From: Moritella sp.
GTDB taxonomy: Bacteria; Pseudomonadota; Gammaproteobacteria; Enterobacterales; Moritellaceae
Direction: 5' to 3'
Assembly (NCBI RefSeq): GCF_013215705.1
Contig: NZ_JABSQR010000004.1
Location: 1-64,000 of the forward strand
DNA length: 64,000 nt
Of this stretch, positions 3,747-37,111 are shown one piece after another. How positions within the stretch are numbered: the first letter of the stretch is position 1; every line of letters starts with the position of its first letter. The position numbers were made by a program, and so were the translations under genes. The notes under the pieces are model-generated. The model searched no databases and was not told the DNA's origin. It worked only from the letters and a program-made list of their open reading frames with translations.

Positions 3747-3766
3747 TTTAGTACTGTTTTTAGCTA

Positions 3767-4333: not shown

Positions 4334-4829
4334 TAATATAAAACCTGTGGAATATAAAGAAGCAGCGATTGTAGATTAATAGTTCTAACAGAGCAATTAG
4401 ATGCAGTTTAAAATATCGCCAAAATAATAAAAACAGCTATTTAAAGCTTGTTAAAACATTAAACACCACGCATTATTCATTCATTACAATGTATAAAATA
4501 CAACCAAACACAACGATAAACACAACCCAACCAGCTGTTATATAAGGACTTTAATCTTACCCGTTATTTTAATTAATATTAAAGCGTTGGCGGAATTAAG
4601 TTATAAAAATAAATTGAAAAAAAGTTATATTTTATTTTCACAGTTATTACCTTTAAATATAACGAATTGTAATTATATCGTTATAGGTTATAGGTTATAT
4701 AAAGTGTGTTCTTATATATTAAATAGCTAGGATCGTTGATCAATATAACTTTATCTTATATTGATTAAATAAGGAGCGTAATTTAATCACGAGTATTTAT
4801 TGGATGATTGATACACTGTAACCTCAGCG
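4334..4829. other. AT-rich intergenic region upstream of satP
   Basis: About 500 bases without a credible gene. It should hold the satP promoter (minus strand). A 7-base unit (GTTATAG) is repeated three times in tandem at about 4680-4700. I found no convincing operator or RNA. Confidence 0.5.
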
Positions 4830-5270: not shown

Positions 5271-5296
5271 AACACGTCCTATACTGCTGAGTGATA

Positions 5297-6187: not shown

Positions 6188-6417
6188 AATCCTGTTTCTT
6201 CGGAGCCTATATTAACTTATCGGTATTGAATTAAATAACTTGAGGCCCTTTTCTAAAAAAGTTAAGCATATCTCAAAATACCGACGATAGTAAAAGCCCC
6301 TAAATGTCATTCCCTGTTGATTATGCCGACAACTAACAATAAATTCGCAAAGTTGATTAGAGGACATGCGATTATTATGGCATAATCCCAGACAAGTCAA
6401 CACTAATAAATGATCAC

Positions 6418-19967: not shown

Positions 19968-20258
19968 ATGATTAACCACTTTAGTGTGCTTGGTATCAAG
20001 CCGAACGCAAATGAAGACGACATTAAGAAAGCCTACAAACGTCTATCGAATCGGTTTCACCCTGATAAATTACTCGGCGCATCAGACGATGAGAAAGTGC
20101 ATGCTGAAGCTCAGCTGCAACGAGTAAGACACGCTTATGAAGTACTTTCAAATCCTAAGCTAAAACGTGATTTTGTAAAAAACTTCAGTAACGTTATTGT
20201 GACCGACCCTGCTGCCGCAATGCGCGAGCTGTGGGATCAATTTTATTCTATAAATTAA
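19968..20258 (+). CDS. Small J-domain (DnaJ-like) protein
   Basis: A 96-aa protein that is almost entirely a J-domain: helix II KKAYKRLSNRFHPDK with the diagnostic HPD tripeptide at about residues 31-33, then helix III (LQRVRHAYEVLSNPKLKRDF). About 25 residues follow, with no Gly/Phe region, zinc finger or substrate-binding domain. Such type III J-proteins stimulate DnaK-family ATPase for a dedicated client. It heads a four-gene operon (13-base gap to the next gene), so its clients or partners are probably the three unknown proteins downstream. AGG lies 7 bases before the ATG. Confidence 0.85.
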   Translation: MINHFSVLGIKPNANEDDIKKAYKRLSNRFHPDKLLGASDDEKVHAEAQLQRVRHAYEVLSNPKLKRDFVKNFSNVIVTDPAAAMRELWDQFYSIN

Positions 20259-20271
20259 TTTCTGAGCACTC

Positions 20272-20763
20272 ATGACAAAAGCACTAGATCTATCACGTAT
20301 TGATGAATTAAAAGAAAATGCATATAGCAATATCGAATCTTATAACGATCCCGATACGCCAGATGCACTTGCGAAATTTACGAGCCAAATTAAAGCTGTT
20401 TTATTAGCTGATCCAAAGTTACTTGAGTCTGTTCCTGAGTACTTACCTATTGCGCTTTATGATCAGGTTAAATTCCCAGCGGAAGCAAAAAACAAGTGGG
20501 CTCATTGGGTCAAAGAAGGTATTCAGCCTGAGTGGGATGAATTTAAAACCACTGTCGCATTTAATAAGACCGACTTACCACTTGTGTTAGCTGTAAAAAA
20601 TTACTCTGAGACCTTATTAATAGAGAGCTGTATCGTCCTCTTCTTATTGGCGAATGACAACAAGTCAGCCGCGACAAATACAGGGCAAGATGATGACTAC
20701 ATCGAAGATCAAGAAGAAGAAGCTTATTACGACCCATTTGATGAGGAAGAGGAAGAGCAATAA
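20272..20763 (+). CDS. Unknown acidic protein, second gene of the J-domain operon
   Basis: I do not recognise this 163-aa protein. It is mostly helical in character: an N-terminal segment (RIDELKENAYSNIESYNDP), a middle segment with FPAEAKNKWAHWVKEGIQPEW, and a hydrophobic helix-like stretch (LLIESCIVLFLLAND, about residues 113-127). It ends in a strongly acidic tail (about 138-163, mostly Glu and Asp). There is no signal peptide. It is 13 bases after the J-domain gene, and its stop codon overlaps the next start (TAATG), indicating coupled translation. Confidence 0.75.
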   Translation: MTKALDLSRIDELKENAYSNIESYNDPDTPDALAKFTSQIKAVLLADPKLLESVPEYLPIALYDQVKFPAEAKNKWAHWVKEGIQPEWDEFKTTVAFNKTDLPLVLAVKNYSETLLIESCIVLFLLANDNKSAATNTGQDDDYIEDQEEEAYYDPFDEEEEEQ

Positions 20764-21524
20764 TGAATAGCTTAATTGAAACAGCCGTAATCGAAATCAA
20801 ACAACTTGCCGATGTAGAACCGCAACAGGCCAGTAAGAAATTTGAGTTATTGGCTAGCACCATGACCGATGACGTTTTGATTGAAGTGATCGAGCAGATG
20901 GATATCGTAACCTTAACGCAGATTAACAGTCATCATGATATTTCTTGCCCTTCAATCATGTCTGAGCTGATGACCCCTGAGCAGATCCGCGATATTGTTT
21001 GTCAGCAACCGTTATATTGGGAAGAAAAGGTTAAGAACAACGCGGATGAATTAATTCAACATACGTTTGATTTTTTAACTTATCTTATCCGAATTCAATC
21101 TACTGAAGCGAAACAAACAGCGATTTTAGAGTGTATAGCTGAAGATCAAGCGGGTCTTTTTTACCTGTCGATCCCATTTATTGAATACCTATTAGCACCC
21201 GCGGTAGAAGCAGATCATCACAGCCACATTACTGATAACTATGATGATGAAGATGATGGCGAAACCGTTGGTTTTACTGACCGCAGTGAACAAGAAGAGG
21301 CGCACAGCTTGAGCCTTGATGATCCACGCAGCCTATTAGCCCTGATCCGTGAACTGGCCCCAGATGTTGAAAAATCAATTAAGAATTTACTGCGTAGCGA
21401 AAACTCAAGCTGGGTGGCTATCATCGACAGTTTCGTCAATGAATTAGTACTTCAAGCAAAAGAGAAAAACGAAGTAAATGATGAATACGCTGAAGTTGAT
21501 GACATGTTTAGTTTTCTTGATTAA
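20763..21524 (+). CDS. Unknown protein, third gene of the J-domain operon
   Basis: I do not recognise this 253-aa protein. It looks cytoplasmic and largely helical. The N-terminal half contains FELLASTMTDDVLIEVIEQM and LMTPEQIRDIVCQQP, which resembles helical-repeat proteins without matching one I can name. An acidic linker (about 157-170, Asp/Glu-rich with His) separates a C-terminal helical part (SLLALIRELAPDVEKSIKNL, SWVAIIDSFVNELVLQAKEK). It starts in the stop codon of the previous gene; the fourth gene follows after 11 bases. Confidence 0.75.
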   Translation: MNSLIETAVIEIKQLADVEPQQASKKFELLASTMTDDVLIEVIEQMDIVTLTQINSHHDISCPSIMSELMTPEQIRDIVCQQPLYWEEKVKNNADELIQHTFDFLTYLIRIQSTEAKQTAILECIAEDQAGLFYLSIPFIEYLLAPAVEADHHSHITDNYDDEDDGETVGFTDRSEQEEAHSLSLDDPRSLLALIRELAPDVEKSIKNLLRSENSSWVAIIDSFVNELVLQAKEKNEVNDEYAEVDDMFSFLD

Positions 21525-21535
21525 GGACTCCATTA

Positions 21536-22429
21536 ATGCAAATTGTACTAAGAGACAGCAATCAAGGTCCTTTTTTAACTAAAGTATTAGATTATGCGCA
21601 ATCAGAAGCGCTATTAGATGAAGCACAACTTGCCGAAATCAAAAGCAAGGCTGTATTGATGAGCCTTAAGCTGGCAGATAAATTTTATAATAAACATAAA
21701 ATGCATCTGCTAGAAAATGCGGCTTTCGATGTGATCGGGGTAGTGAGCTTGGGATTGATGTCGCTCAGTAATCATGACCTAACTCAAGCACTTAAACTGA
21801 TTGTAGCACCAAACGGCATTGTAAAATCGTTCCAGAAAGGTTGGAGCATGCTGAGTCGTGTAAGCAAGTATAAGCTAAACGGTAAATCAGTATATGGCGA
21901 TATAGATCCTATGCTACTCGATAAAATATCAACACCGAGTGATGCTGATGAATGGCAAGGCTGGCAGAGCTATCAAGACGCGCTGTTAGACTTTAATCGT
22001 GAAGAGTCTATTGTCGGTTTGTTAAAGCAGTTTTACGCGCAAACAAGCTACGATCCTTTAGATTGTTTAAGCCTCGAAAGCGTGTTTGCAGAAATCGTAC
22101 TGTACCGTCTATTTTTTGGTCCCGTTAAAGTAAGACCGGATCTTAAGCAACGCGTAGCTAAAATTGAACTTGAAGACGTCTGGTTCTCGATTGAGCATAT
22201 AGACCAACAAATTAAGCTAACATTGTCCGAGTTGCCATCACAACTTGCCGAGATCATAAAGCTTGAACTGGGTAAATATTTTACCGCTGGTTTATTGCGC
22301 ACATTAACGTTTGCTAAAAACTATCGTGAACTGCGCTTCCAAGATGCGAGTCCAGAGCGATTAGAACGATTTGAATATAAAGAAGGGCTAACAGGTTTGT
22401 TAGGTTGGCCAGTCTACATCGTAATGTGA
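21536..22429 (+). CDS. Unknown protein, fourth gene of the J-domain operon
   Basis: I do not recognise this 297-aa protein. No signal peptide or clear membrane segment is visible. Noticeable segments are LADKFYNKHKMHLLENAAFD, DEWQGWQSYQDALLDFNREE and the C-terminal ELGKYFTAGLLRTLTFAKNY. It ends the operon at a strong terminator. A decayed copy of its last third plus that terminator lies 4 kb downstream (26249-26396), showing that this 3' end took part in a duplication or integration event. Confidence 0.75.
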   Translation: MQIVLRDSNQGPFLTKVLDYAQSEALLDEAQLAEIKSKAVLMSLKLADKFYNKHKMHLLENAAFDVIGVVSLGLMSLSNHDLTQALKLIVAPNGIVKSFQKGWSMLSRVSKYKLNGKSVYGDIDPMLLDKISTPSDADEWQGWQSYQDALLDFNREESIVGLLKQFYAQTSYDPLDCLSLESVFAEIVLYRLFFGPVKVRPDLKQRVAKIELEDVWFSIEHIDQQIKLTLSELPSQLAEIIKLELGKYFTAGLLRTLTFAKNYRELRFQDASPERLERFEYKEGLTGLLGWPVYIVM

Positions 22430-22462
22430 TATCTATAAAGATTCACAGGATTAACGAATGAT

Positions 22463-22502
22463 AAAAAGCGGGAATATCCAATCGGGTATTCCCGCTTTTT
22501 TT
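22463..22502 (+). terminator. Terminator of the J-domain operon
   Basis: AAAAAGCGGGAATA pairs with TATTCCCGCTTTTT across a 10-base loop and ends in a T7 run. A mutated copy of this element is found at about 26342-26381. Confidence 0.85.
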
Positions 22503-22794
22503 ATACCCACAGATAGCGTTTAGCATATCCTATGAATATCCTATTCACGTCATACATAATATATTGCAATATACAAAATGCAGTAGCTATGAGTTTAAAA
22601 AACGGAATTTAATCCAAAACAACAAGGTGACCAACTGTCTCATAAATGTGGCAGGTAGTATTTTTTTAACCATTTAGGGATATATTTATTTTATTTACTT
22701 TGTATTCTTTATATAATAAAAATCATTGGGCAACCGGTCCGGTGATTCAATCCAAAATGTAACATAATTGGATATTTTGACGCGTTTAAAAGGA
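22503..22794. other. Intergenic region before the VUT-family gene
   Basis: Nearly 300 bases, AT-rich. It contains a 14-base perfect palindrome TATATTGCAATATA (22560-22573), an ACCGGTCCGGT palindrome near 22733-22743, and a TATAAT hexamer near 22712 that could be a -10 box. Nothing coding is supported. Confidence 0.4.
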
Positions 22795-23589
22795 ATGATG
22801 TGCGCCATGAAATTAAAAATTAATACCATAAATAGCGATGATATAAGTTACACTTCAGATCAGGGAATGTTAGTAACAGATAAAGCTCATATATTAATAC
22901 GACGAAATTTATTAAATTTATTCACTAAAGAAGATCGAGATAAAATACGCATTGCCGCAGGATATACAGAATCTCATGAATATAATCAAACGTTCTTATC
23001 TGTACTTTTTACACTGTTTATAACTTTTTTACTCCTAGCTATACCAATGTCACCAGCTCCAGTGACTATCTTCAATACAGTACAGCCAGCTGGAATTTTA
23101 ATTTTTCCATTAACATTCATTATTATTGATTCGGTAAATGAGCTATTTGGATACAGATATGCTCGAAAACTATGTATCATCGCATCATCTATCATGCTTC
23201 TTGCAGCGTTGCTAACATATATAAGTTTGTCTGTTTTTGATATTTCAGGCGCATACCAAGAAGTGTTTGGAAAATTACCGCGCTTATACTTAATTAATGC
23301 ATTATGTATTATTATTGCAGACCAATTAAATAATAAATTTTTTAGTTACTTTAAGGCTAAGCTGTCTTTTTCTGCACTCTACTTACGCTGTATATTATCA
23401 ACAGCGATAGGTCAGATTGCATATACTATTCTCTGGATCACTATATTTTTTGGTACGAGTGTTAATGTTGCACTATTGTCTCGTATTTCAGATAACTACA
23501 TGTTCAAAGTTGGCTATTCAATTGCCCTTATCCCAGTTACATATTTAATCGTTTTATTGTATAGACAATATAGACCTCTTGACCTTTAA
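22795..23589 (+). CDS. VUT-family (YhhQ-like) probable queuosine-precursor transporter
   Basis: Membrane protein of about 264 aa with six hydrophobic segments. It contains the family core: PAGILIFPLTFIIIDSVNEL (helix with the conserved D..NE), then GYRYARK and a late helix pair with TAIGQIAYTILW. VUT/YhhQ proteins import preQ0/preQ1. This one lacks any neighbouring queuosine gene and has an unusual 65-residue N-terminal extension before the first helix. The start is uncertain. ATGs at 22795, 22798 and 22807 all follow an AGGA at 22791, and the longest frame begins at a TTG at 22768. It is in the AT-rich insert. Confidence 0.75.
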   Translation: MMCAMKLKINTINSDDISYTSDQGMLVTDKAHILIRRNLLNLFTKEDRDKIRIAAGYTESHEYNQTFLSVLFTLFITFLLLAIPMSPAPVTIFNTVQPAGILIFPLTFIIIDSVNELFGYRYARKLCIIASSIMLLAALLTYISLSVFDISGAYQEVFGKLPRLYLINALCIIIADQLNNKFFSYFKAKLSFSALYLRCILSTAIGQIAYTILWITIFFGTSVNVALLSRISDNYMFKVGYSIALIPVTYLIVLLYRQYRPLDL

Positions 23590-23609
23590 CATCGGCTAAA
23601 ATAACTATT

Positions 23610-23657
23610 AAAACCTTGATGGACAGTTCTTTAACAAAGTAGTCCAACAAGGTTTTT
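23610..23657 (+). terminator. Terminator-like inverted repeat after the VUT-family gene
   Basis: Fifteen-base arms with one mismatch (AAAACCTTGATGGAC / GTCCAACAAGGTTTT), a 17-base loop, and T residues after the second arm. Confidence 0.6.
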
Positions 23658-23727
23658 AATCTAAATGGTAAATATAAAACAATAAAATATACTGATGAAA
23701 TATTATTTCATTAGTTTAGGTGTCAAC

Positions 23728-24498
23728 ATGGAATATGAAACAGAATACTCAATCAATAATATTGTTCAGCAAGATGCAGCGAATTATCTAATTAATATGA
23801 TAGCTCACCCTCAGCCAAAACGAATTCTAGATATCGGCTGTGGCAGTGGCAATGTGACTCATAAATTAAGTTTAAAATATCCTAACGCCATCATTGATGC
23901 GATCGATCCATCAGAAAAAATGATTCATATTGCAAATAATAATTACCCATCATCAAATTTCAATTTTATATGTAAAAAAATTGAGGATTTCACGTCCGAA
24001 CATAACTATGATTTAATTTTTTCTAATTCATCTTTTCAGTGGTGGGAACGACATGATACTGCATTAAGCAGGATTGCTGATTTACTTGCTTCCAATGGCG
24101 TTGTCGCAATTCAAACACCTTATAGGGATTTATGGTGTGAAGAAATAATAATACTTGTAGATCAAGTTTTTGAGATGTACTTCCCCAATTTATATAAAAA
24201 CTTCAACTTTCCTTGTTTACATTTGGAGACAGAAACACAATTTAAAGACTTACTACTTCACTCAGGGTTAACGCCAACCACAATTAAATCTCACAGTTTT
24301 ACTTATAATGTGACGAGTGAAGAATTATTTAAAATATTTAAATCTGGTGCAGTCAAAGTCTACACATTAAATGATAACTTTAACATAGACGTCCCTACCG
24401 ATTTTCAAACTGAATTTCTTAAAAAATTCAAATATTTAATTAGTAACAATAATGTTAGAACATTATCCTTGCACCGAATGCTACTCTTATGCAATTAA
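23728..24498 (+). CDS. Class I SAM-dependent methyltransferase
   Basis: A 256-aa protein with the Rossmann SAM-binding motif RILDIGCGSGNVTHKL, motif II (AIDPSEKMI) and motif III (DLIFSNSSFQWW). The pattern resembles BioC and trans-aconitate methyltransferases: SNSSFQWW is typical of BioC. There is no biotin gene nearby, so I do not assign bioC. The frame is open from 23695, but the ATG at 23728 has AGGTG 5 bases upstream and matches the family start better. Very AT-rich codons mark it as part of the insert. Confidence 0.75.
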   Translation: MEYETEYSINNIVQQDAANYLINMIAHPQPKRILDIGCGSGNVTHKLSLKYPNAIIDAIDPSEKMIHIANNNYPSSNFNFICKKIEDFTSEHNYDLIFSNSSFQWWERHDTALSRIADLLASNGVVAIQTPYRDLWCEEIIILVDQVFEMYFPNLYKNFNFPCLHLETETQFKDLLLHSGLTPTTIKSHSFTYNVTSEELFKIFKSGAVKVYTLNDNFNIDVPTDFQTEFLKKFKYLISNNNVRTLSLHRMLLLCN

Positions 24499-24600
24499 TT
24501 TAGGATTATCTAGCAACATTAATAGTATTATTATGCATGGTTTTCAGTCTCCATAAATATAGTTTTATTTTAAATATATTTAAACTCTCTTTCATCATGT

Positions 24601-24903
24601 TTATTTAAACAAATAGAACACCAATAATAACTGTAAAGCACAAAATAACAAGCAATGAAAAAACATACTTGTACCCCATTTTGATAAGTCAGAATTAGAT
24701 TTATTGCTTAGCTTACTTTTACCAACTAATATACGACGCAAGCCAAATATAAGAAAAATAAATAATACTTCAATATTACTCGATATTGCATAATCAATTT
24801 TGTTGAATCCAGCTATGATACGGATCCTTTCTAACTGAGAATTCTTGAAAATCAGCCTGAGAATAATAACAATAAATAGTATAGCCAATGTGGTAGCCAT
24901 CAT
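24601..24903 (-). CDS. Small hypothetical membrane protein
   Basis: A 100-aa frame with three hydrophobic segments: residues about 3-17 (TTLAILFIVIILRL), about 44-57 (SNIEVLFIFLIFGL) and about 82-98. A basic loop lies between the last two. There is no recognisable family. It overlaps the upstream small frame by four bases (ATGA), which favours both being real. In AT-rich DNA a hydrophobic frame of this size could still be spurious. Confidence 0.45.
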   Translation of the reverse strand: MMATTLAILFIVIILRLIFKNSQLERIRIIAGFNKIDYAISSNIEVLFIFLIFGLRRILVGKSKLSNKSNSDLSKWGTSMFFHCLLFCALQLLLVFYLFK

Positions 24904-25103
24904 AATCTCAGTTCTTGTATTATCACAGCGTCCAATATGGCCGTTATAATACTTTCATCACTACATTTAAACACATGACCAAAAAAGTGTGCCGTTGGTA
25001 TCAACTTAACTTCAACGCTGACTATAGATAGATCATTAATCATATTCATACCTGTATAATTAAGTTCTAAATTGCTAACGTAAATGTCATCAAAACAAAA
25101 CAA
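24900..25103 (-). CDS. Small hypothetical protein upstream of the membrane protein
   Basis: A 67-residue frame that opens at a TTG. An internal ATG would give about 49 residues beginning MNMINDLSIVSVEVKLI. The end overlaps the next start by four bases. No family is recognised and the start is unclear. Confidence 0.3.
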   Translation of the reverse strand: MFCFDDIYVSNLELNYTGMNMINDLSIVSVEVKLIPTAHFFGHVFKCSDESIITAILDAVIIQELRL

Positions 25104-25655
25104 AATACCTATTAAGTGTAAGAACCAAGCCTATAATGCAAACTTAACACAACAAAATAGCCAAGATCAAGTAAGATATTGAATTTGTTAGCTTAAAAAA
25201 TATAACAATCGGACATAAAGGTCTAGCTAACATAAACGACTAAATATTTGCGACACGGATCTAAGATAGTAAATTTATTTGTATCATAAATAGGACAAAA
25301 CTGATGAAGCATGATTTATTAACTATTGATAAAAGATAACCACTAAACAGCTTAGTTAGCTTAATAACCTATATTAAAGTCAATACTTGAGCGAATTGGA
25401 CCTTTCATTCAGTTTGCTATTTATTGGTTCGTTACCACATAATGATAACGCCACAACCGATTTTTCAGGTTGAATTTGCTTTTAATGTTATCTTTATATA
25501 ACTTTCAGTCTAAGTACTTATTTTCTGGTACTGTCAGGCTCTATTAATTAAACAATAAGAGTCTCAATAATAAACCCAATTTATTGGGTGTTATTACACT
25601 GTCTCTTTGGTAGTATTATAAATAGACTTTATTGTTTTTAAGGTATTGATATAAA
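25104..25655. other. AT-rich intergenic region upstream of the repressor
   Basis: About 550 bases without a supported gene. The only distinct element is the ACCCAATTTATTGGGT palindrome near its right end (separate entry). Confidence 0.45.
25574..25589. promoter_or_regulatory. Candidate operator of the phage-type repressor
   Basis: A perfect 16-base palindrome ACCCAAT-TT-ATTGGGT, 66 bases before the repressor ATG and just upstream of a TATTAT -10-like hexamer (25614-25619). The position suits autoregulation. Confidence 0.5.
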
Positions 25656-26201
25656 ATGAATTTATTTAGTGAAAGACTTAAGCAATCAATGGAAATACGT
25701 GGTATTACTGCGGCGATGATGTCTAGGGATCTTGATATATCTAGAGGGCGTATATCAAGTATGACAACAGGCCGCGTACAAGCACCACGTAAAGATCTAC
25801 CTATCATAGCAAGGTATTTAGGTATATCCGAACTTTGGCTATTAAACGGAGAAGGCGAAATCGAAGGAGAGATAGTGTATTTACACGAACTTCAAGATGG
25901 AGAGTTAGTTAAAGGCAAAAGTTTCATTAAATTAAGACATGTAGTCATCAACAAAAACCATGTAATTGTTGATTCATCACGCATTGATGCATTTCCTGAT
26001 GAATTATATTTCATATTGGCGATCAATAAAAAGAGTGATGGATTATATCTTTTATATAAAAACGAGAAGTACTTTTTATCACATAGGATGGATAATATAA
26101 TAAATTCGGATTGGACAAGTCTGTCTGAAGAGAATATCGAAGATGTTAAAATTATTGGATATGTTGATGCATTTTTCAATAAAGAATTATATAAACAATA
26201 A
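25656..26201 (+). CDS. XRE-type helix-turn-helix repressor, phage CI-like
   Basis: A 181-aa protein. The N-terminal HTH domain (about residues 1-70; AAMMSRDLDISRGRISSMTT, then PIIARYLGISELWLLNGEGE) is typical of CI/CI-like repressors. The C-terminal half (about 85-175) resembles the beta-rich S24/LexA dimerisation domain and ends KIIGYVDAFF. I do not see the catalytic Ser and Lys with confidence, so it may not self-cleave. No other phage gene is near; it may be a remnant or controller of the mobile insert. An AAGG site lies upstream. Confidence 0.75.
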   Translation: MNLFSERLKQSMEIRGITAAMMSRDLDISRGRISSMTTGRVQAPRKDLPIIARYLGISELWLLNGEGEIEGEIVYLHELQDGELVKGKSFIKLRHVVINKNHVIVDSSRIDAFPDELYFILAINKKSDGLYLLYKNEKYFLSHRMDNIINSDWTSLSEENIEDVKIIGYVDAFFNKELYKQ

Positions 26202-26248
26202 CACTTATTACGAGATAACTTGACCCCTGCTTAGCCCCAAAGGGAAAA

Positions 26249-26396
26249 GCCGAGGCCATAAAGGTTGAGCTGGGTCAGTACTTTACTTCAGGTCCACTGC
26301 GCACGTTAACGTTTGCTAAAAACTATCAAGATTCACAAATGATAAAAGCGGGGTATCCAATCGGGTATTTCCGCTTTTTTATACCCACGGATAACA
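26249..26396 (+). pseudogene. Decayed partial copy of the J-operon fourth gene and its terminator
   Basis: Read in frame, the segment gives AEAIKVELGQYFTSGPLRTL and then TFAKNY, matching residues of the gene at 21536-22429 (AEIIKLELGKYFTAGLLRTL, TFAKNY). After the TFAKNY codons about 90 bases of the original are missing. The copy then resumes with AAGATTCACA, AATGATAAAAGCGGGGTATCC and the terminator hairpin with TATACCCAC. Several mismatches show that it is not a recent exact duplicate. It brackets the 22.5-26.2 kb insert with the intact gene. Confidence 0.8.
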
Positions 26397-26437
26397 CCAA
26401 ACTTAAATGTTCCAAATGCAATGCTTGATGAGGTGTA

Positions 26438-28813
26438 TTATAACTCACCTCCCAATTCAATTACGGTATGTCGAATTAAAGAATCTTTTACTTCAAATTT
26501 CACCCTACCGGTAATGCCATTCACATCAATCGCAACCAACTCTACATCACCATTTAAATATTCAGGTAATTTTAATCGTAGAGATTTTGTTTGCGTGGAT
26601 AACCATTGCCCGTTTAAATACCAACTCACCTCTCCTACAGCGCCACTAACATTCACCATTAGTTGAATAGGTTCTGGATCTAAACGATACAGTTGCTGCT
26701 GATCTTCAATACCCCCAATAATTAATGCATCAGCTTGCTTGGGGATAGCTAAACAACGGGGAGAATATTTGGGAATACGCGCACTACGTTTTTCGCGATA
26801 AGATAACCATGGTTCCATTTGGCGTGGCCACAGCGTCACTTTCTGACGAATACCCGATAACGCACCACATTCACTAGATAAACGTAATTTTGTAATCGCA
26901 TCTAATATCACGGTTTGTTGCGCTTGATGAAAAGCTAACCCAGACTCTACTTGCAAGGTTCGTGGCGTCACCCCTTGTTTAGTTAATGCAAATAAGCGTC
27001 GATCACATTCTCCTTTCGCCAAAGTAACTGATCGCCCATCTGGCCAACAAATCTCTTTATCAATCACGCCCAAAGGACGTTCAGGCTGTAAATGCTGACC
27101 GTTTAACATGTCCAGTACAGTAAACAAAGCAGGGGCTGCAGTTTTAATACCTTGTGCGTCTTTGAGTGGTTCACCACTGGGCCTGCCGACCCAAACCCCA
27201 ATCGTATACTCTGCAGTGCTGCCAATTGCCCAGGTATCCCGGCTTGCCCAACTCGTACCGGTTTTCCACGCTAATAATGGCCGTTTTTCGTTTGATAAGC
27301 CCCAGCGAAATTGCTTAGGAGCAGTCACGCCTGTTAACGTTTTCCAGGTTATCCAAGCTGACTCTTCACTTAATAATCGGCGCCCTTTAACCCTTGATTT
27401 CGTCGCTAAAGATTCGAAGACTAACGGGTTAACCCATCCACCATTAGCAAAGCTCGAATGTAAACCGACTAAACTTTCTAAAGAAATACCAGCCCCCCCT
27501 AAAATCACAGCGGCACTCGCTTTGTTTTTTGGAATAGTGAGCGGCTGTAAAACATGTGCAAGTTTGTTCACAAACAACTGCTCACCATAGGCTTCAATCA
27601 GTTGCACAAACGGAATGTTTAACGAACGCTGTAACGCATCGCTCGCCGTCACTGGTCCAGCAAATCCTTTGGTAAAATTACGGGGACGATAACGAGAACT
27701 TAATCGAGGCACATCCGCTAATAGCGATTGTGAATGAATTAAATTTTGATCAATTGCCAAGCCAAATAACAGCGGTTTTAGCGTCGAACCCGGAGAGCGA
27801 ATTGCCTTTACCATATCCACATGCCCAGCTCGACTCGCATCTTGCATGCTCGCAGACCCAACATAACTAATGACATGTTGGTTATGATTATCAACCACCA
27901 GTACCGCCATTGAAACGCCATCCCCGATCAAGCTGGCATAACCTTGCACGTAAGCACTAATTCGCTGCTGTAATTCACGCTGGATATGGGTCTTTATTAC
28001 TTTTTTTTCTGGATGCTTTTGATGCAATCGTCTAGCTAACAATGGTGCAACAAAAGGCTGCTGAGGTTTCCATACTGAGATAGGTTCTTGCATCACTTTA
28101 AGTGCTTTTTGTTCACTCCACAGCCCAAATTTAACCAAGCGTTTAATTACTTTATTACGGGCTTGAGTAGCACGTTGTGGATAACGGTCAGGACGATAAC
28201 GCGATGGCGCTTGTGGTAATACCGTTAATAACGCAGCTTCTGCAGGGCGTAGTTGTGATGCGGGTTTGCGTAAATATTGGTAGCTAGCGGCTTGTACACC
28301 TTCGACAGTCCCGCCGAAGGGAGCATGGTTAATATATATCGTTAATATTTGCGCTTTACTGAGATGCCATTCTAATTGTAGCGCGCGTAATACCTGTTGT
28401 AATTTACCCAATAAACTACGCTGATGAGGGTGTAATAAACGCGCAACCTGCATTGTAATGGTTGAAGCGCCTGAAACAATACGTTGATGATAAACATATT
28501 GCCAAGTAGCCCGCACAAAACTAATCGGGTTAATACCAGGATGCAGATAAAAATAGCGGTCTTCATAAGTAATTAAGGCATCAAGATATTCTGGCGATAC
28601 CTCGTCAAGGCTAACTTGATAACGCCAAACGCCTTTTTTGTCTGCAAACGCTCTCAGTGGATAACCTTCATCATCCAATACCACACTGGCAAACTCTTTC
28701 TGTTGGTCAGGTAATGCCAGTGGGTAAATAATGTTGAAAACCCATAAACTGGCCACAACAAACAGCACGCTAAGGAGTAGGTAAACACCGCGACGTTTGA
28801 ATTTATTAGCCAT
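26438..28813 (-). CDS. pbpC: Penicillin-binding protein 1C (glycosyltransferase/transpeptidase-like)
   Basis: Class A PBP of 791 aa (E. coli PbpC 770). Residues 1-30 are a signal-anchor. The glycosyltransferase domain has catalytic Glu84 in TYEDRYFY and SGASTITMQVARLL (114-127). The transpeptidase domain has Ser343-X-X-Lys346 (SPGSTLKPLL) and KTGTSWASRD. The C-terminal part (about 690-791) is the PBP1C-specific BiPBP_C domain with the VSGAVGEVSWYLNGQW pattern. It lies 4 bases downstream of the alpha-2-macroglobulin gene, the widely conserved yfhM-pbpC pair in which the two proteins are thought to guard and repair the envelope. Confidence 0.95.
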   Translation of the reverse strand: MANKFKRRGVYLLLSVLFVVASLWVFNIIYPLALPDQQKEFASVVLDDEGYPLRAFADKKGVWRYQVSLDEVSPEYLDALITYEDRYFYLHPGINPISFVRATWQYVYHQRIVSGASTITMQVARLLHPHQRSLLGKLQQVLRALQLEWHLSKAQILTIYINHAPFGGTVEGVQAASYQYLRKPASQLRPAEAALLTVLPQAPSRYRPDRYPQRATQARNKVIKRLVKFGLWSEQKALKVMQEPISVWKPQQPFVAPLLARRLHQKHPEKKVIKTHIQRELQQRISAYVQGYASLIGDGVSMAVLVVDNHNQHVISYVGSASMQDASRAGHVDMVKAIRSPGSTLKPLLFGLAIDQNLIHSQSLLADVPRLSSRYRPRNFTKGFAGPVTASDALQRSLNIPFVQLIEAYGEQLFVNKLAHVLQPLTIPKNKASAAVILGGAGISLESLVGLHSSFANGGWVNPLVFESLATKSRVKGRRLLSEESAWITWKTLTGVTAPKQFRWGLSNEKRPLLAWKTGTSWASRDTWAIGSTAEYTIGVWVGRPSGEPLKDAQGIKTAAPALFTVLDMLNGQHLQPERPLGVIDKEICWPDGRSVTLAKGECDRRLFALTKQGVTPRTLQVESGLAFHQAQQTVILDAITKLRLSSECGALSGIRQKVTLWPRQMEPWLSYREKRSARIPKYSPRCLAIPKQADALIIGGIEDQQQLYRLDPEPIQLMVNVSGAVGEVSWYLNGQWLSTQTKSLRLKLPEYLNGDVELVAIDVNGITGRVKFEVKDSLIRHTVIELGGEL

Positions 28814-28817
28814 GTGA

Positions 28818-31800
28818 TTAAGGTTTTTCTTTCACATTAATTTGTTTAATACTGCCCCCGACACCACGCACAGACGGCTTGTACATGGACTCCACTTGCA
28901 CGGCAGGGAACACATAACTTCCCGGATTTACCGCACGCGATAATACATAGAGAGTTTGTACACGTTGTTCCGGTAAATCAACCGCAGCGACATAACGGTC
29001 GTCTCTAAACTCTTCATGCGCTATATCTGCTGCAATTACGATTTTCTCACCGTCAATGGTAATTTCAGCAATTTTTAGACTATTTAATAAATTCTGGTTT
29101 TCTAATTCAACCCCCGCAGGCATTAAGCTCACCACTAATGCATCAGGTACGCGTACATCACTGCGTAATGTGATACGCGTTAATAATAAATCCCCTGAGT
29201 GCAATGTATTGCTATCCGCTAATTTGGTCGCTTCGTTATTGTTTACTAAAAAGTGTGCAGTTTCGACACGAATTCCTTTATAAACGTCATAATCAGCTTG
29301 TTTTTTCACCCCCATCCAATCAAACGAAACATAAAGTGGTAAGTCGCCTGTATTAGTAAACGTCGCCTGAAGTTCTTTAGTGATATCTATATCTTGGCGG
29401 TATACACCATTTTTGTGTAGCGTGGTTATTTGTTTATTAATGGTTAAATCACCCTGCCACGGTTGCTCGTTATATTGCTGTTGTATCGTCATCGCCAATA
29501 GCAAAATAGCGCTACGTTCTTGGGTGCTCAGCCATTGCTGTTGCTGTATTGCCGATACTAACTCAGGTAGCATAAGCAATGCATGTAGTTTTAATTCCTC
29601 ATTCACTAAGTCACTAGTAACCAGCGCATCAATCACCATTGCTTGGTCACGTATTTCACTGCCGTAGTCCCCAAGATAAGAATTACTTCTTTTTTTCTTT
29701 AATGCTTGCAAGATCAATGTGCTGCCCTCCTTTTCACTGCCAGTCATTAGCATCGCTAAACCAAGGTGTACACCGGGTAATTTACCCTCGGCATTAAGGA
29801 GATCTTGTTCTGCAATATCTCGTAAAGGGCCGAGGGTGATCTTGGCTTGCTTGGCTAATACATAAGCAGCATAAGCGCGGTAAGCTACATCATAATGTTG
29901 TGGGTTGCTTGACCATATTTCAACTTGATGGCGCGCGCGCGAAGTTACATAACTTTCTAAACGTTTAGTCGCACTATTGAGCATCGCATCAGGCACTTCC
30001 ATGCCTTTATCTTTGAGGTTATAAAGAAACTCAGTAGCATAAGCCGTTAACCAATGTTCCTCTTTCGAGGTTTTACTCCATAGACCAAAGCTGCCATCGG
30101 CGCGTTGCAATTCGCGATAACGCTCAATCGCACCTTGTGCTTTTTGATTAATATCATCAACACTTACGTCATTAATACTCGTCGCCTTACCATCTTGTGT
30201 TAACACTGCTGCAAATGGACGTGATTTACTGGTCGTTTGCTCTAAACAACCATAAGGGTACGCTGTTAAATAACGCCAATGTTCTGTGGCATTTAAGTTA
30301 GGGCTTAAACCAACAAACAGTTGTAACTGTTGCGTAGCATCTATAAATGGTGCTAACGCTTGGGCCGGTAAGTGCAGATTATCACCTGGCATCAACAGGG
30401 CTTTTTCACGATTAAATTCAGCGGCCTGTGTTGCGCGTACAGGTAATGACCATTGACGCTCAATAACCTCATCCGCCATCACAAATTTAGCTTGCAACTC
30501 TCCAACACCTACATCTTGTAGTGCTTGTAAAGTGAAGTGTAATGTCTGTTTTTGATTTGGCTCGAGAGTCAGCGATCTTTTGTTATTTTGGCTAGCGAGT
30601 TGACCCGCTACATTTAAAGAAAATTCACCTTGTAGTAACAGTGCGGTCACGTTACTGACATCCAACACTATTTCACTACGATCACCGGTTGCCATAAATT
30701 TAGGCAAAGCCACTTGTAATACTACCGGTGACGTGACTTTTACAGTTGTTTCAACTTTTGCAAACTGTGCGTTATCAAAAGCGACTACAGTTAAATTTAA
30801 CTCGCCATCAAATACTGGTAATTGTAATGGTATTTCTGCCACCCCATCTTTTAACGATACAAGACCACTAAATAAACTCACTATTTTCGCTTCGTTTTTC
30901 GATTTTTCTCCCCCTCGGGTTAATGCCGCATCACCGCCCCAACGAAGACTTGCTTTATCGGCTAACAGTGGCGTCATCACTTGATCGTACATATCGGTGA
31001 TAACACCTTGGTATTTGCGCTGACCGTAGAAAAAGCTATATGGGTCTGCTACTTTATATCCCGTCACGTTTAATACCCCTGAATCAACAGCAGCTAATGT
31101 TACTTTGGCGTGACCAGATACAGGATTACCAGTAGCATCGTTTGCTCGTACTTTAACAATAACTTGTTGATTAGGCGCCCAACGCTCTGGTACATCCAGT
31201 TTGAGATCAATATGACGTTCTGTACGGGTAAGGGGTAAATGAATAATACCAAAACTACGTTTTGACACAGACTCACTGTGTGTTTTAGAAGGGGCAATAA
31301 CAAATGCGGTGATGTATGCATCATGACGCACCAAGCCTTTAGGCACGGTTAGTTTCACCTCAGATTCGCCATCGCCAACCTCAACCTGCTGCTGAAATAA
31401 TACCGAGTCTGTTTCAATGGTGATTAATGCATTACCAGCATAAGGAGCGGCAATACGTAAAAGCAAGGTTTCACCGGGTAAATAACTCTCTTTATCTAAC
31501 GCTAAATTAACCCGATCAGGTCGAATGGTTTTGCTGTTGTTTTGCCAATCATTATACCAAGCCTCACCCGCTCGAAAGTGATAAATGGTTTTACCACTTG
31601 TTTCAAGATCCGTTAGCTCTAGACGGTAACCCCCCCACTCAACACTTAGATCCAATGTTAATGGTTTTTTGTCGACAAAACTGAGGATCTGACTATCAAC
31701 CACATACTCTTTTTCAATACGCTCATAGTGCCAGCCATTATTATTGTTGTAAGTCCAAAAATAACGTTTCTCTTCACGTATTAGTTCCGTTTTCACTTCA

Positions 31801-33716
31801 CCTTGTGTAATCGGGCTGGCATTTTTATCTAGTTTCAATAAATTAAATTGAATCGAACTATTGCTCGTAGACTGAGCATTTTCAAACCCTGGTTTTACCG
31901 CTATAAAACTCTTTTTTGGCCAAAGTAGACTATCGTAAAAACGGTTTATGGCACGCCCACCACTTTCAAACAAGCTATAATGTAGGCGTACTTTCGTCGG
32001 TATATTCCAGTTTTCCCAAGGTTGTTTCACTATACTGCTATGTTTACCAGTGTCATCAAGCATGGTATCCGCTAATGCAAAATCGACTTTTTTGGCACCA
32101 TTACTGTCGCCAATATAATAATCAGGCCACTGTTCAAAGGGCTGTGTCCACGCTGAAGTGTTGCCACGTGTTTCAAGGCGGTTACCAGCAGCGGGTGCCC
32201 CGTATAAATACTCACCTAATACCAGCACGTTTAGTCCTTGCTTAGGACTAAACTTTTGTAACTTATCTGCTTCACCTAAGGTTAAACGCAGACGTTCAGG
32301 TAAAAACTCTTCTACTTTAAAATGAAAACGAGCTTGATAATTGTTATCCGCTCTGGTTGTTACTTTTGCTTGCCAGTTACCTAAAGGGGTCGATTTTGGC
32401 AAATTGACACTGTATTGGTAATAACCATTTTTACTATCCGTTGCTTTCAGCCAGATAGATTTGTATTTACTCCCATCGGGTTTATACAACTCAACACTTA
32501 CCTGCGAACCATCTACCTGCCCATCAGCATCTCGACGCAATATACTCAGCGTAAGTGTTTCACCGGGTCGGTAAATATCACGCTCAGAATAAACAAATAA
32601 CTGATTATCCCTGAAGGGTAAGTCCCCGACATTAAAATCGGTTAGATCAAAGCGCGGATTTTTATAAGGTAGTACTGTGACCTCTTTGCCTTTACGAGCT
32701 ACAATTAACGATAAGTTTTTGATATTTTTTACGTTGACGACGCCTTGCTGATTAGTTGTTTGAACAGCATAACGTTGCGATTTTCCATCCAGTAGAGCCA
32801 CCTCGATCCCTTTCAGTGGTGCACCTGTTTTTATGTCTTGGGTAATAATATGCATTTCTTTAGGGAATTGGCGTATTTGTAAACCTATCGAAGAGACCGA
32901 GAACCATGTGGCGGCATCAAACTCAAACACTCCAGGTTTACCCAAAGTGGCAAAATAAACCCCGCTCTCATTTGCCCAATCTTTATCCGCAATGGAGAAA
33001 GAGGTCACCTGCCGCTGATTGGCTTTACCTGCTGTTTTAACACGCGCTGTATAGAGGTGCTCAACCATCTTAGCGCGATTATCGTTATGGTAATAATAAG
33101 CACCACTACTTGCGATTTGTTTATACTGTTGCAAGAAATTGGCTAACTCGTTCAATTTAACACGATAAATATTAAGATCAACTTCAGGCACATTCACCGA
33201 ATATATGCCTAAATCATCGGTATGTCCCGGTACTAAAATTGCGCCCTGCTGTGATTTAAAACTAATCAAAGGCGCCATTGCGCGTGTATTAACGGTTTTC
33301 TGATAAACGTCTCTTAGTTGGCTGCCATGCTCGGCTTTTAAGCCTGCGATAACGTTGATTTGATATTTTGTTTCAGGATAAATCCCGTTATATTGCAATT
33401 GTCTGCCATCTGCGCTTAACACAGGGCTAACTAGCGGTGGTGTGATTTCAATATAATTAGAAAAATTTTGATTAGCTTCAATCGGAGCGTTAAACAAAAA
33501 AACAATCGCATTACTTTTTCCAACTTCTCGTTCAGACACATCTAATAATTTTAGTTGAACCGATGAATAATCAATTTCTTTAGCTGAAGTGGAAGTGTTC
33601 AACGTCGACTCAAGTGCAGCTGGAATATTATTTGAGTTACTTTCACTATTATTGTCACAACCGAATAACAGCCCTAAAAAGATCGTTATGATACAAAATC
33701 TATTAATTACTTTCAT
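28818..33716 (-). CDS. yfhM: Alpha-2-macroglobulin family lipoprotein (YfhM-type)
   Basis: Periplasmic protease-trapping protein of 1632 aa (E. coli YfhM 1653). A signal peptide with a lipobox (LLFGC, Cys20) predicts lipidation. MG-type beta domains fill the first 1100 residues (NQLFVYSERDIYRPGETLTL near 380 is a family signature). The thioester motif CLEQ begins at Cys1157 (YPYGCLEQTTSK) and is followed by the helical thioester domain. Residues 21-45 form a Ser/Asn-rich linker. The intact CxEQ marks it as the thioester-containing partner of PbpC. Confidence 0.94.
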   Translation of the reverse strand: MKVINRFCIITIFLGLLFGCDNNSESNSNNIPAALESTLNTSTSAKEIDYSSVQLKLLDVSEREVGKSNAIVFLFNAPIEANQNFSNYIEITPPLVSPVLSADGRQLQYNGIYPETKYQINVIAGLKAEHGSQLRDVYQKTVNTRAMAPLISFKSQQGAILVPGHTDDLGIYSVNVPEVDLNIYRVKLNELANFLQQYKQIASSGAYYYHNDNRAKMVEHLYTARVKTAGKANQRQVTSFSIADKDWANESGVYFATLGKPGVFEFDAATWFSVSSIGLQIRQFPKEMHIITQDIKTGAPLKGIEVALLDGKSQRYAVQTTNQQGVVNVKNIKNLSLIVARKGKEVTVLPYKNPRFDLTDFNVGDLPFRDNQLFVYSERDIYRPGETLTLSILRRDADGQVDGSQVSVELYKPDGSKYKSIWLKATDSKNGYYQYSVNLPKSTPLGNWQAKVTTRADNNYQARFHFKVEEFLPERLRLTLGEADKLQKFSPKQGLNVLVLGEYLYGAPAAGNRLETRGNTSAWTQPFEQWPDYYIGDSNGAKKVDFALADTMLDDTGKHSSIVKQPWENWNIPTKVRLHYSLFESGGRAINRFYDSLLWPKKSFIAVKPGFENAQSTSNSSIQFNLLKLDKNASPITQGEVKTELIREEKRYFWTYNNNNGWHYERIEKEYVVDSQILSFVDKKPLTLDLSVEWGGYRLELTDLETSGKTIYHFRAGEAWYNDWQNNSKTIRPDRVNLALDKESYLPGETLLLRIAAPYAGNALITIETDSVLFQQQVEVGDGESEVKLTVPKGLVRHDAYITAFVIAPSKTHSESVSKRSFGIIHLPLTRTERHIDLKLDVPERWAPNQQVIVKVRANDATGNPVSGHAKVTLAAVDSGVLNVTGYKVADPYSFFYGQRKYQGVITDMYDQVMTPLLADKASLRWGGDAALTRGGEKSKNEAKIVSLFSGLVSLKDGVAEIPLQLPVFDGELNLTVVAFDNAQFAKVETTVKVTSPVVLQVALPKFMATGDRSEIVLDVSNVTALLLQGEFSLNVAGQLASQNNKRSLTLEPNQKQTLHFTLQALQDVGVGELQAKFVMADEVIERQWSLPVRATQAAEFNREKALLMPGDNLHLPAQALAPFIDATQQLQLFVGLSPNLNATEHWRYLTAYPYGCLEQTTSKSRPFAAVLTQDGKATSINDVSVDDINQKAQGAIERYRELQRADGSFGLWSKTSKEEHWLTAYATEFLYNLKDKGMEVPDAMLNSATKRLESYVTSRARHQVEIWSSNPQHYDVAYRAYAAYVLAKQAKITLGPLRDIAEQDLLNAEGKLPGVHLGLAMLMTGSEKEGSTLILQALKKKRSNSYLGDYGSEIRDQAMVIDALVTSDLVNEELKLHALLMLPELVSAIQQQQWLSTQERSAILLLAMTIQQQYNEQPWQGDLTINKQITTLHKNGVYRQDIDITKELQATFTNTGDLPLYVSFDWMGVKKQADYDVYKGIRVETAHFLVNNNEATKLADSNTLHSGDLLLTRITLRSDVRVPDALVVSLMPAGVELENQNLLNSLKIAEITIDGEKIVIAADIAHEEFRDDRYVAAVDLPEQRVQTLYVLSRAVNPGSYVFPAVQVESMYKPSVRGVGGSIKQINVKEKP

Positions 33717-34093
33717 TGATAACCTTACTTTACAACGTTAGAAATAGCTCGTTCAGAAAGAGTACATTATCTGGTTCGTCGAACAACGAGGTTAAGTTTA
33801 TAATAATAATCACAAATTAACATTAATTTTATCGACGTCTAAAACCTCAAATTCAGAACACATCAAATTAATGGTCGACGCTGAGTCTACCTGGTTAACG
33901 AAACAACTCGGTATGCCGATTGGGGAATACGCCGGAATTTTTATAGGGAGTGAATATCAGAACAGGGTGCGGATAGTAGCAGTAAACAAGTCACAAAACG
34001 GGGGGACAACTTAACCCCAGCTACACTATGAAAGTAAAACTGGCGCTAAGTAACAGATATTAAATATCGTTTAACTATTTTCTAATAAAAGAA
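33717..34093. other. Intergenic region at the right end of the accessory block
   Basis: About 375 bases without a supported gene. It should hold the promoter of the alpha-2-macroglobulin gene. In other genomes recR would lie at this point, directly after ybaB. No repeat or integrase trace was seen. Confidence 0.45.
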
Positions 34094-34423
34094 TTAGAAC
34101 GGCATTTTCATACCTGGTGGTAATTTCATACCGCCAGTAGCGTCAGCCATTTTTGATTTGTTTTCTTCTTCAACACGGCGAGCAGCATCGTTGATTGCTG
34201 CAGCGATAAGATCTTCTAACATTTCTTTATCGTCTTCCATCAATTCTGGATCAATTTGCACACGACGTACGTTATGGCTACCAGTCATAGTGATTTTAAC
34301 CATGCCTGCACCAGATTCGCCAACTACTTCCATGTTAGCTAGTTCTTCTTGTACTTTAGCCATTTTGTCTTGCATTTGTTGAGCCTGCTTCATTAGCTGA
34401 CCCATTCCGCCTTTACCGAACAT
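34094..34423 (-). CDS. ybaB: Nucleoid-associated protein YbaB/EbfC
   Basis: Small DNA-binding protein of 109 aa (E. coli YbaB 109). It starts [20 protein letters not shown], has [18 protein letters not shown] in the middle and ends with the Gly/Met/Pro-rich [13 protein letters not shown], all family hallmarks. It lies downstream of dnaX on the same strand (117-base gap), as usual, but recR does not follow. Confidence 0.96.
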
Positions 34424-34540
34424 ATTAAACTCTCTTTATATCTGACTGTTGCGAACAACAATAAATAAATACCGATTGCTTCGCATTGAATATCCATACT
34501 ATATGGGTATCATTGAAAAAATTTCAAGGTTGCTAACTCG

Positions 34541-37111
34541 TTATGACAGCACAATTGAACTATCATCAATAACAGCGCCGAGACGGTTCATAAAGAACTG
34601 AATATACTTATCATCATACAAGTTTTTAGTCGCATTCGCTAAGCGTTGTTGATAAATTATTTCTTCAAGTTGCGCTGGCGTTGATTTATTTTGGTTTTCA
34701 CCAAAGTTAATCACTAGCTCAACGGGCTCTGATAATACTTGCTGCAGCGCGTCACTTAACTGCTGACGCGACTTGTCATTGGCAAAATAGCGTTGGTCTG
34801 GATTCATGGTCAAAGTAATACGACCAGGTTCCTGCTCCATCACACTGTGCAGCGCCAATTGACGTACACGACCACCTAAACTCATCTGATTAATGTAACA
34901 ACACCACGGATCATTCTCATCACGTAGCTTATTGTCTAACGGTGCAGTTGCCGTTGATTTACCTGACTTCTGCGCCTGAAAAGCCGGTGACAAATCATTA
35001 ATATCAACCTTAACCTGACTAAAGCGGTCGATTTGACGAATCGCTGGCTCAGCAAAGCCTTGCGCGGGATAAGCACTAGGCTCTGGCATTTGGTTATGAT
35101 AACCACCCTGCCCCTGATCTTGGTCTTGATAATTGCCTTGACCTTGAAAGTTGCCTTGGTCTTGGTACTGTCCTTGATCTTGGTGATTATTTTGATAACC
35201 GCCTTGGTCCTGATAGGAGTCAAGCGGTGGTAACTCTTGCCATGCCGGTGCAGACTGTTGCTGTGCTTGTTGCTGTGCTTGTTGCTGCATAGGTTGACTT
35301 GCAGGTGCGTTAAAACGACTCTGCATAGTGGGTGTATGCTGTATAACAGGTGCTACCGCTTTTTTCGGCGGTACATACGACGATGGAGCCTGTTCACTCT
35401 TCGCCGCTGTCGACTTTTTTGCAGTTGTACCTAAACGACTGCGTAAAAAATTACGGGTTTTACGTCCTTGGTCAACACTGTTTTCCGCTACCGGTGCTTG
35501 CGCAGGTACTTGACTCTGTTGTTGCGGCTGTTGCTGCGGCGCAGTGCTTACTTGTTCATGCTGAATTGGCGCAGCTTGTGTCAGTGCCGTATTCATCGGC
35601 ACAGGCGCAGCATAATCCAGTGGCGCTACACTTGGTGACTCAATTTGCGGAGCAGCATAGTTTTGCGGCTCAACGCTCTGTGGGTCAGCGATTTGTTGTT
35701 CCACACTTTGCGGCTCAACATGCCCCATCGCTTGCGCTGCTTGTAATAGCTCGTTTTGCTCTAGGTTTAAATTCGTAACAGCTTCATCACGCGGCTCTGC
35801 AGCTGGTGCTACTGGTTGCGGCATTGATTCTGGTACAGGTTGCTGTACTTGCTGAGGTGCTTGCTGTTGTATCTGAGCCGGAACTGGAGCAGCAACTGGC
35901 GTTGTAGCTTGCACTGGAGCTTGAGAAACCACGGTTTGCTCAATCGGCGCTGCTATTATCGTTTCAGTCACAGCAGGCGCGATTGCGACAGGGGCTGGCG
36001 TTACATCTCTCTCTGGTGCTTGTAAACGCCCTTGTGGACGGAACGCTAACATACGTAATATAGTCATTTCTAACGCACTACGTGGATCAGGAGCTAATGG
36101 CAGTTCTTTACGACCTGTTAAGGTGATTTGATAATATAACTGTACATCTTCTGGCGACATATCATCGCACAAGGCTTTCACTTTATCGGCATGTTCAGTA
36201 TCAACCACTGACGACGGCAAAATTTGCGCCATGGCAATGCGGTGTAACAAGCTTGCTAACTCCACGTGAAGTTGGTCAAAGTCAGGCCCTAACGAGCTGA
36301 TTTCAGCAATTTTAGCCATACACTTGTTAGCATCGCCACTGACAATTAAGCGCAGTAACTGCAGCATATGGCTGTGATCTAACGTGCCCAGCATATCTAG
36401 CACTGTCTGGTATAAGACTTCACCAGAACCATGTGATAACGCTTGGTCGGTCAAACTCAACGCATCACGCATACTACCATCAGCCGCTTTAGCGATTGAA
36501 TTTAATGCTGATAATTCATACTGGCAATGTTCCCGCGATAAAATATGCACTAACTGCTGAGAGATCTGCTCAGTCGTTAGGCATTTCAAATGAAACTGCA
36601 AACAACGCGATAAGATCGTAATCGGCAGTTTTTGTGGATCGGTTGTCGCTAGCAAGAACTTCACATATTCAGGGGGCTCTTCTAACGTTTTTAATAACGC
36701 ATTGAAACTGTGCTTAGAAAGCATGTGTACTTCATCGATTAAGTACACCTTAAAACGGCCACGAGCAGGCTTATATTGCACATTATCAAGTAGCTCACGG
36801 GTATCTTCTACCTTGGTACGTGAAGCCGCATCAATTTCAAGCAGATCCACATAACAGCCTTGGTCAATCTCAACACAGGTTGAACATTCACCGCAAGGTG
36901 TACTGGTGATGCCTTTCTCACAGTTTAAGCTTTTGGCGAAAATACGGGCGATAGTCGTTTTACCAACACCACGCGTACCACTAAGTAAATAAGCATGGTG
37001 TAAGCGGTCTTGCTCTAGCGCATTAACTAAAGCGGTCAGCACATGTTGTTGACCAACAACTTGCTGAAAATTATGCGGGCGCCATTTACGCGCTAAAACT
37101 TGATAACTCAT
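34541..37111 (-). CDS. dnaX: DNA polymerase III subunit tau (and gamma)
   Basis: Clamp-loader ATPase of 856 aa. The AAA+ module has Walker A GTRGVGKT (45-52), a four-Cys zinc module (CGECSTCVEID), Walker B LIDEVHML and sensor motifs. A very long Gln/Pro/Ala-rich linker (about 370-700, with repeated YQDQG units) precedes the C-terminal tau domains, which bind DnaB and the polymerase alpha subunit. Codons 564-566 read GCA-AAA-AAG, the same slippery site as in E. coli dnaX. A -1 shift meets TGA six codons later and would give a gamma form of about 572 aa. The length is well above E. coli tau (643 aa) because of the linker. Confidence 0.95.
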   Translation of the reverse strand: MSYQVLARKWRPHNFQQVVGQQHVLTALVNALEQDRLHHAYLLSGTRGVGKTTIARIFAKSLNCEKGITSTPCGECSTCVEIDQGCYVDLLEIDAASRTKVEDTRELLDNVQYKPARGRFKVYLIDEVHMLSKHSFNALLKTLEEPPEYVKFLLATTDPQKLPITILSRCLQFHLKCLTTEQISQQLVHILSREHCQYELSALNSIAKAADGSMRDALSLTDQALSHGSGEVLYQTVLDMLGTLDHSHMLQLLRLIVSGDANKCMAKIAEISSLGPDFDQLHVELASLLHRIAMAQILPSSVVDTEHADKVKALCDDMSPEDVQLYYQITLTGRKELPLAPDPRSALEMTILRMLAFRPQGRLQAPERDVTPAPVAIAPAVTETIIAAPIEQTVVSQAPVQATTPVAAPVPAQIQQQAPQQVQQPVPESMPQPVAPAAEPRDEAVTNLNLEQNELLQAAQAMGHVEPQSVEQQIADPQSVEPQNYAAPQIESPSVAPLDYAAPVPMNTALTQAAPIQHEQVSTAPQQQPQQQSQVPAQAPVAENSVDQGRKTRNFLRSRLGTTAKKSTAAKSEQAPSSYVPPKKAVAPVIQHTPTMQSRFNAPASQPMQQQAQQQAQQQSAPAWQELPPLDSYQDQGGYQNNHQDQGQYQDQGNFQGQGNYQDQDQGQGGYHNQMPEPSAYPAQGFAEPAIRQIDRFSQVKVDINDLSPAFQAQKSGKSTATAPLDNKLRDENDPWCCYINQMSLGGRVRQLALHSVMEQEPGRITLTMNPDQRYFANDKSRQQLSDALQQVLSEPVELVINFGENQNKSTPAQLEEIIYQQRLANATKNLYDDKYIQFFMNRLGAVIDDSSIVLS
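35394..35430 (-). promoter_or_regulatory. Programmed -1 frameshift site in dnaX
   Basis: The in-frame heptamer A-AAA-AAG occupies 35420-35414 on the minus strand. The -1 frame continues GTC GAC AGC GGC GAA GAG and stops at TGA (35396-35394). An AGG triplet lies about 10 bases upstream of the heptamer, at the distance of the stimulatory Shine-Dalgarno-like element of E. coli. I could not confirm a downstream stem-loop by eye. Confidence 0.75.

Follow-up and report, generated by a model that had tools for sequence, protein, structure and literature searches.

The Moritella atcJABC operon: a dedicated J-domain protein, its three partners and a diverged sister operon

What is the job of a small J-domain protein that is encoded together with three proteins resembling, at first sight, nothing known? 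This question is raised by four genes at positions 19968..22429 of a 64,000-nucleotide stretch of DNA from Moritella sp. (contig NZ_JABSQR010000004.1, positions 1 to 64,000; hereafter the window). The original prediction, made from the letters of the window, described a 96-amino-acid (aa) J-protein with an intact HPD motif and three partners of no nameable family, and proposed an undescribed system. The analysis indicates that the operon is the atcJABC of a Moritella species, with its AtcJ-AtcC-AtcB network (probability about 0.96). The operon consists of the following features:

19968..20258, + strand: atcJ, 96-aa class C J-domain protein; HPD at residues 31-33; C-terminal tail with P81-x7-W89
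20272..20763, + strand: atcA, 163 aa; acidic C-terminal tail; NF047888
20763..21524, + strand: atcB, 253 aa; helical model, acidic linker and conserved C-terminal DDMFxxL tail; NF047889
21536..22429, + strand: atcC, 297 aa; all-helical model; NF047890
22463..22502, + strand: intrinsic terminator of atcJABC; hairpin and T-run; −26.9 kcal/mol, z = −6.9

All four proteins score above the cut-offs of NCBIfam equivalog families for cold-adaptation proteins: AtcJ reaches 169.4 bits against NF050028 (spelled ActJ in the library; cut-off 150), AtcA 249.7 bits against NF047888 (cut-off 200), AtcB 461.5 bits against NF047889 (cut-off 440) and AtcC 501.3 bits against NF047890 (cut-off 370). Because these scores pass the cut-offs, the four open reading frames can be accepted as real genes. 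Among named organisms, AtcC comes closest to the proteins of Moritella sp. PE36 (96%), Moritella sp. JT01 (90%) and Moritella dasanensis (85%), followed by Shewanella at 64% or less. On the evidence of this single protein, the window belongs to a Moritella. The identification as atcJABC rests on the four equivalogs together with a gene order and gaps that agree with those published for the genus, the P-x7-W tail of AtcJ, the linkage of the genes across genomes and these Moritella relatives of AtcC. Pfam names one protein of the operon, finding the DnaJ domain in AtcJ (E = 4.7e-17), which fits the earlier impression of unrecognised partners; for AtcA, AtcB and AtcC nothing exceeds any Pfam cut-off. 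Matches of these three to TIR_3, DUF1280, Pfc11 and the DNA polymerase III finger were dismissed (E = 0.07-0.14, below cut-off).

Could the system nevertheless be undescribed and unrelated to known ones? The silence of Pfam on AtcA, AtcB and AtcC would agree with this, as would the lack of a significant match to solved structures by sequence (AtcA, AtcB and AtcC) or by fold (AtcB and AtcC). However, NCBIfam holds an equivalog for each of the four genes, and the published account of the operon, characterised in 2019 in Shewanella oneidensis, covers Moritella (PMC6715715), which reduces this alternative to a negligible one. The operon is already known, and its synteny in Moritella is already part of the 2019 paper (PMC6715715). 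The claims of novelty and of partners without a family are thus refuted. It had also been reasoned that the idea would fall if the partners matched known families with unrelated roles; they do match known families, but families of one and the same system. The idea of a J-protein and three co-encoded partners joined in a DnaK-assisted job coincides with the published model (PMC6715715).

The anatomy of the operon is as first described. The genes are adjacent and co-directional in the order J-A-B-C, with gaps of 13, −1 and 11 bases, and the predicted coordinates are exact. H31, P32 and D33 are present in AtcJ. Two of the proteins are acidic, as had been noticed: 16 of the 40 C-terminal residues of AtcA are aspartate or glutamate, and AtcB carries acidic residues at about 158-179. 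The predicted terminator was recovered as a hairpin with a T-run that begins 34 bases 3′ of atcC, and none of 200 shuffled sequences folded as well. A simple consensus terminator scan did not list it, and a scan of the same kind found no sigma-70-like site on the + strand 5′ of atcJ. The AtcA, AtcB and AtcC proteins of S. oneidensis are reported to be without signal peptides (PMC6715715).

Do the four genes always travel together? Linkage was examined in 247 genomes drawn from the order and in 14 named control genomes. The atcA, atcB and atcC genes occur in the same 34 of the 247 genomes, side by side, and score over the cut-offs in 30 of these. In 29 of the 247, atcJ scores over its cut-off; all 29 lie within the 34, and atcJ adjoins atcA. 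It is below cut-off yet adjacent in three further genomes (G085, G115 and G193), and in two (G005 and G153) the contig begins or ends inside atcJ, with the AtcJ tail still readable. Overall, atcJ stands beside atcABC in 32 of the 34 genomes, and a contig end cuts it in the other two. The linkage that the original prediction wished to see checked is therefore unbroken (34/34), and its reservation that homologues might normally be unlinked does not apply. None of the 14 controls contains atcA, atcB or atcC; Thermus composti alone among them gave a J match, below cut-off. The J search (E = 1e-15) brought up a further 16 J-domains below cut-off in genomes without atcABC; by the length of their reading frames (378-390 aa), these look like ordinary DnaJ. 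Among 31 loci retrieved, some of which are the same genome fetched twice, one is a remnant (L015); 28 of the 30 others show all four genes, and L003 and L016, from the same contig, lose atcJ at the contig edge. When 369 genomes were drawn from the whole class, the Moritella source genome of the window was the only one to yield atcB. Such a sample is too small to chart the distribution of the operon, since the title of Weber et al. 2023, as given in a reference list (PMC10939069), speaks of conservation in environmental proteobacteria.

Is the operon instead cargo of a defence or mobile element? The surroundings lend this idea some colour, since the interval between atcC and dnaX (window 22430-34541) is an insertion hotspot. 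The operon is present in 10 other genomes of the genus that were fetched (with atcJ cut by a contig edge in L033), and its flanks vary. Upstream, dhaLK and gldA occur in two of nine informative relatives (L032 and L037), within 3.7-5.1 kb of upstream DNA. Beyond the operon, dnaX, apt and dusC lie from 34541 on in the window, about 12 kb past atcC, whereas nine of ten relatives have dnaX 0.6 to about 10 kb past atcC (only in part in L032, at the end of its stretch); in L038, dnaX was not among the first six open reading frames of at least 150 aa, which reach 11.9 kb past atcC. Since flanks and insert length vary while the operon stays, the interval is a place of gene gain in Moritella and the operon itself is kept, in line with the variable block noted at the outset. 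Against a cargo role, all 11 genomes of the genus examined have atcA, atcB and atcC despite the changing flanks, so the operon behaves as core, and none of the four proteins has a match among the PADLOC models of anti-phage defence at E = 0.01. This explanation is consequently very improbable.

How, then, does the system work? The available knowledge comes from S. oneidensis, where AtcJ stimulates the DnaK ATPase in an HPD-dependent manner and binds AtcC through its 21 C-terminal residues, with dissociation constants of 7 nM for full-length AtcJ and 80 nM for the tail peptide; AtcC in turn binds AtcB, and strains without atcJ, atcB or atcC are crippled in growth at 7 °C, whereas loss of atcA has no such effect (PMC6715715). 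Contact of AtcB with RNA polymerase was reported in a meeting report (PMC7871303), and the likely job of the system would hence be to bring DnaK to RNA polymerase. In Moritella, AtcJ would stimulate DnaK and bind AtcC via its tail, AtcC would hold AtcB, and AtcB would contact RNA polymerase, so that DnaK is brought to RNA polymerase (or to another target of AtcB) and growth in the cold is enabled. AtcA, with its acidic tail, would play an accessory part; S. oneidensis can do without it in cold growth. By homology, AtcC of Moritella is the probable partner of both the AtcJ tail and AtcB, and the whole operon presumably works as in S. oneidensis. The RNA polymerase step, taken alone, is evenly balanced between right and wrong.

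Several points weigh against this scheme. Many Moritella are psychrophiles, for which "cold growth" may simply be normal growth. In S. oneidensis, expression of atcJABC is almost equal from 7 to 37 °C, and the authors allow for an alternative role (PMC6715715). The contact with RNA polymerase rests on a single sentence of the meeting report (PMC7871303), and a workshop report of 2023 describes the mechanism as still to be elucidated (PMC10939069).

A different mechanism for the same operon is that AtcC or AtcB is itself a DnaK client, handed over by AtcJ for folding or remodelling in the cold, as in the HscB-IscU-HscA (Jac1-Isu-Ssq1) system. A dedicated partner encoded alongside a class C J-protein is common to both systems, the comparison being that of the authors of the 2019 paper themselves, and S. 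oneidensis AtcC melts at 31 °C alone and at 44 °C with AtcJ (PMC6715715). The two systems also differ: no Pfam model matches AtcC above cut-off, leaving nothing to mark it as a scaffold of the IscU kind, and AtcJ matches HscB models weakly, below cut-off. This client mechanism is unlikely, although it deserves far more weight than the two alternatives dealt with above.

How closely does the Moritella operon resemble its characterised counterpart? The S. oneidensis operon (SO_1850, SO_1849, SO_1848 and SO_1846) has the same four-gene order, a short dedicated J-protein with HPD and an atcA/atcB overlap (PMC6715715). The Shewanella loci fetched, which do not include S. oneidensis itself, share the acidic AtcA tail and the P-x7-W of AtcJ. 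Identity to the aligned Shewanella loci (L019-L029 without L025) is 73-80% for AtcB and 55-64% for AtcC. According to the 2019 paper, synteny is conserved across 80 genomes of Shewanella, Moritella and Aeromonas; in 74 of the 80 the gap between atcJ and the gene that follows is the usual 8-24 bp, as with the 13 bp of the window, whereas the spacing is 120 bp in S. oneidensis (PMC6715715). AtcA is shorter in Moritella, at 163 aa compared with a 540-bp gene in S. oneidensis (PMC6715715). In Shewanella morhuae (L021 4704-5231), an in-frame stop interrupts atcA after 23 codons, whereas the alignments of atcB and atcC run the full length; the stop fits AtcA being dispensable, or is a sequencing error.

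Structure prediction names no fold for AtcB or AtcC. AlphaFold models of AtcB and AtcC were built from 16 sequences, comprising the window and 15 of 16 AtcC-relative loci; L025, almost identical to L024, was left out. AtcC is predicted to be all-helical, with a predicted local distance difference test (pLDDT) score of 78 (63-67 in the other four of five models) and a predicted template modelling score of 0.71. The AtcB model is helical, with a pLDDT of 66 and two long low-confidence stretches (146-179 and 235-253). The best Foldseek matches in the PDB had E = 0.73 for AtcC and 0.11 for AtcB, with none at 0.001, so that no fold can be named for either; with models from 16 sequences, a missing match says little. 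Weak AtcB matches to helical-repeat proteins (Pat1, Puf and MgtE) were not used. Sequence searches of solved structures found no match for AtcA, AtcB or AtcC up to E = 1; profiles gave none for AtcC up to E = 10 and chance-level matches alone for AtcB (E = 0.68 or worse). AtcJ gave none at E = 1e-12, the sole threshold asked, which says little for a J-domain.

Which parts of the proteins are conserved furthest? A diverged sister operon exists in two families of the order, and four genomes (G085, G115, G153 and G193) carry such an atc-like operon, its four genes in the usual order and with A, B and C scores far below the NCBIfam cut-offs:

L054 1473-3962: diverged atc-like operon
L055 (G193) 3241-5803: diverged atc-like operon
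L056 (G085) 3807-6322: diverged atc-like operon
L057: diverged atc-like operon; a contig end cuts the J gene

Two of these, L055 and L056, were put to the NCBIfam scan. L056 scored 62.8 bits for J (cut-off 150), 23.5 for A (200), 80.4 for B (440) and 38 for C (370), and its A, B and C match no other NCBIfam family at E = 0.01. General DnaJ models give its J-domain a better score (up to 85.5 bits) than the AtcJ model does, so that this domain would not by itself place the operon. Pairwise identity to the window is 37% for J, 19% for A, 30% for B and 25% for C.

Two tails persist across this divergence. H31, P32 and D33 of AtcJ are invariant in all 18 aligned AtcJ sequences, the window copy included, and P81 and W89, with their P-x7-W spacing, are likewise invariant in all 18 (15 typical and three diverged); counting the partial J of G153, the motif is kept in 4/4 diverged operons. 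The P-x7-W motif of the C-terminal extension is reportedly attributable to Weber et al. 2023, a study that may already include such diverged operons. AtcB ends in DDMFxxL in 19 of 19 sequences examined (16 typical and three of three diverged, G153 not among them), and this tail is modelled with low confidence (pLDDT about 39-47). The AtcJ and AtcB motifs survive where most other identity is lost, and so point to possible contact sites. The AtcB tail may be a second conserved docking peptide, for AtcC or RNA polymerase, and jobs beyond cold growth are possible in the deeply diverged lineage (L054-L057); this proposal is tentative and somewhat less probable than the RNA polymerase step. Comparing the tails would be of use in testing the DnaK-RNA polymerase model, which is not yet settled. 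The discovery value is small, the window adding a further example, from Moritella, of an operon already described, with the sister lineage and the AtcB tail as modest leads.

What else lies between atcC and dnaX? A gene for a queuosine-precursor transporter (Vut_1; TIGR00697 over cut-off) stands at 22768-23589, between atcC and a methyltransferase gene; tblastn found no match to it of more than 60 aa in the stretches of ten relatives. Among the differing genes of this interval in L032 there is, by look, a type I restriction-modification set. Further along the window lies a piece of atcC:

26249..26380, + strand: remnant of a second atcC 3′ end and terminator; inner part missing; outside the working operon

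The original prediction had read this as a duplicate of the last gene's 3′ end. The copy exists, but it is probably not a duplicate of the resident gene: its 26249-26331 segment is identical to resident atcC at 67 of 83 bases. Among the relatives, it matches the atcC of G009 at 76/83, G006 at 74/83 and G004 at 71/83, and the other seven at 59-68/83; G009, G006 and G004 are also the three in which atcC adjoins the methyltransferase gene of the window (79-83% identity). The resident atcC end is closest to G005 (78/83) and G003 (77/83). Given 76/83 for G009 against 67/83 for the resident gene, the fragment was more probably acquired by recombination from a G009-like lineage than copied from the resident atcC, although 83 bases are few for such a reading.
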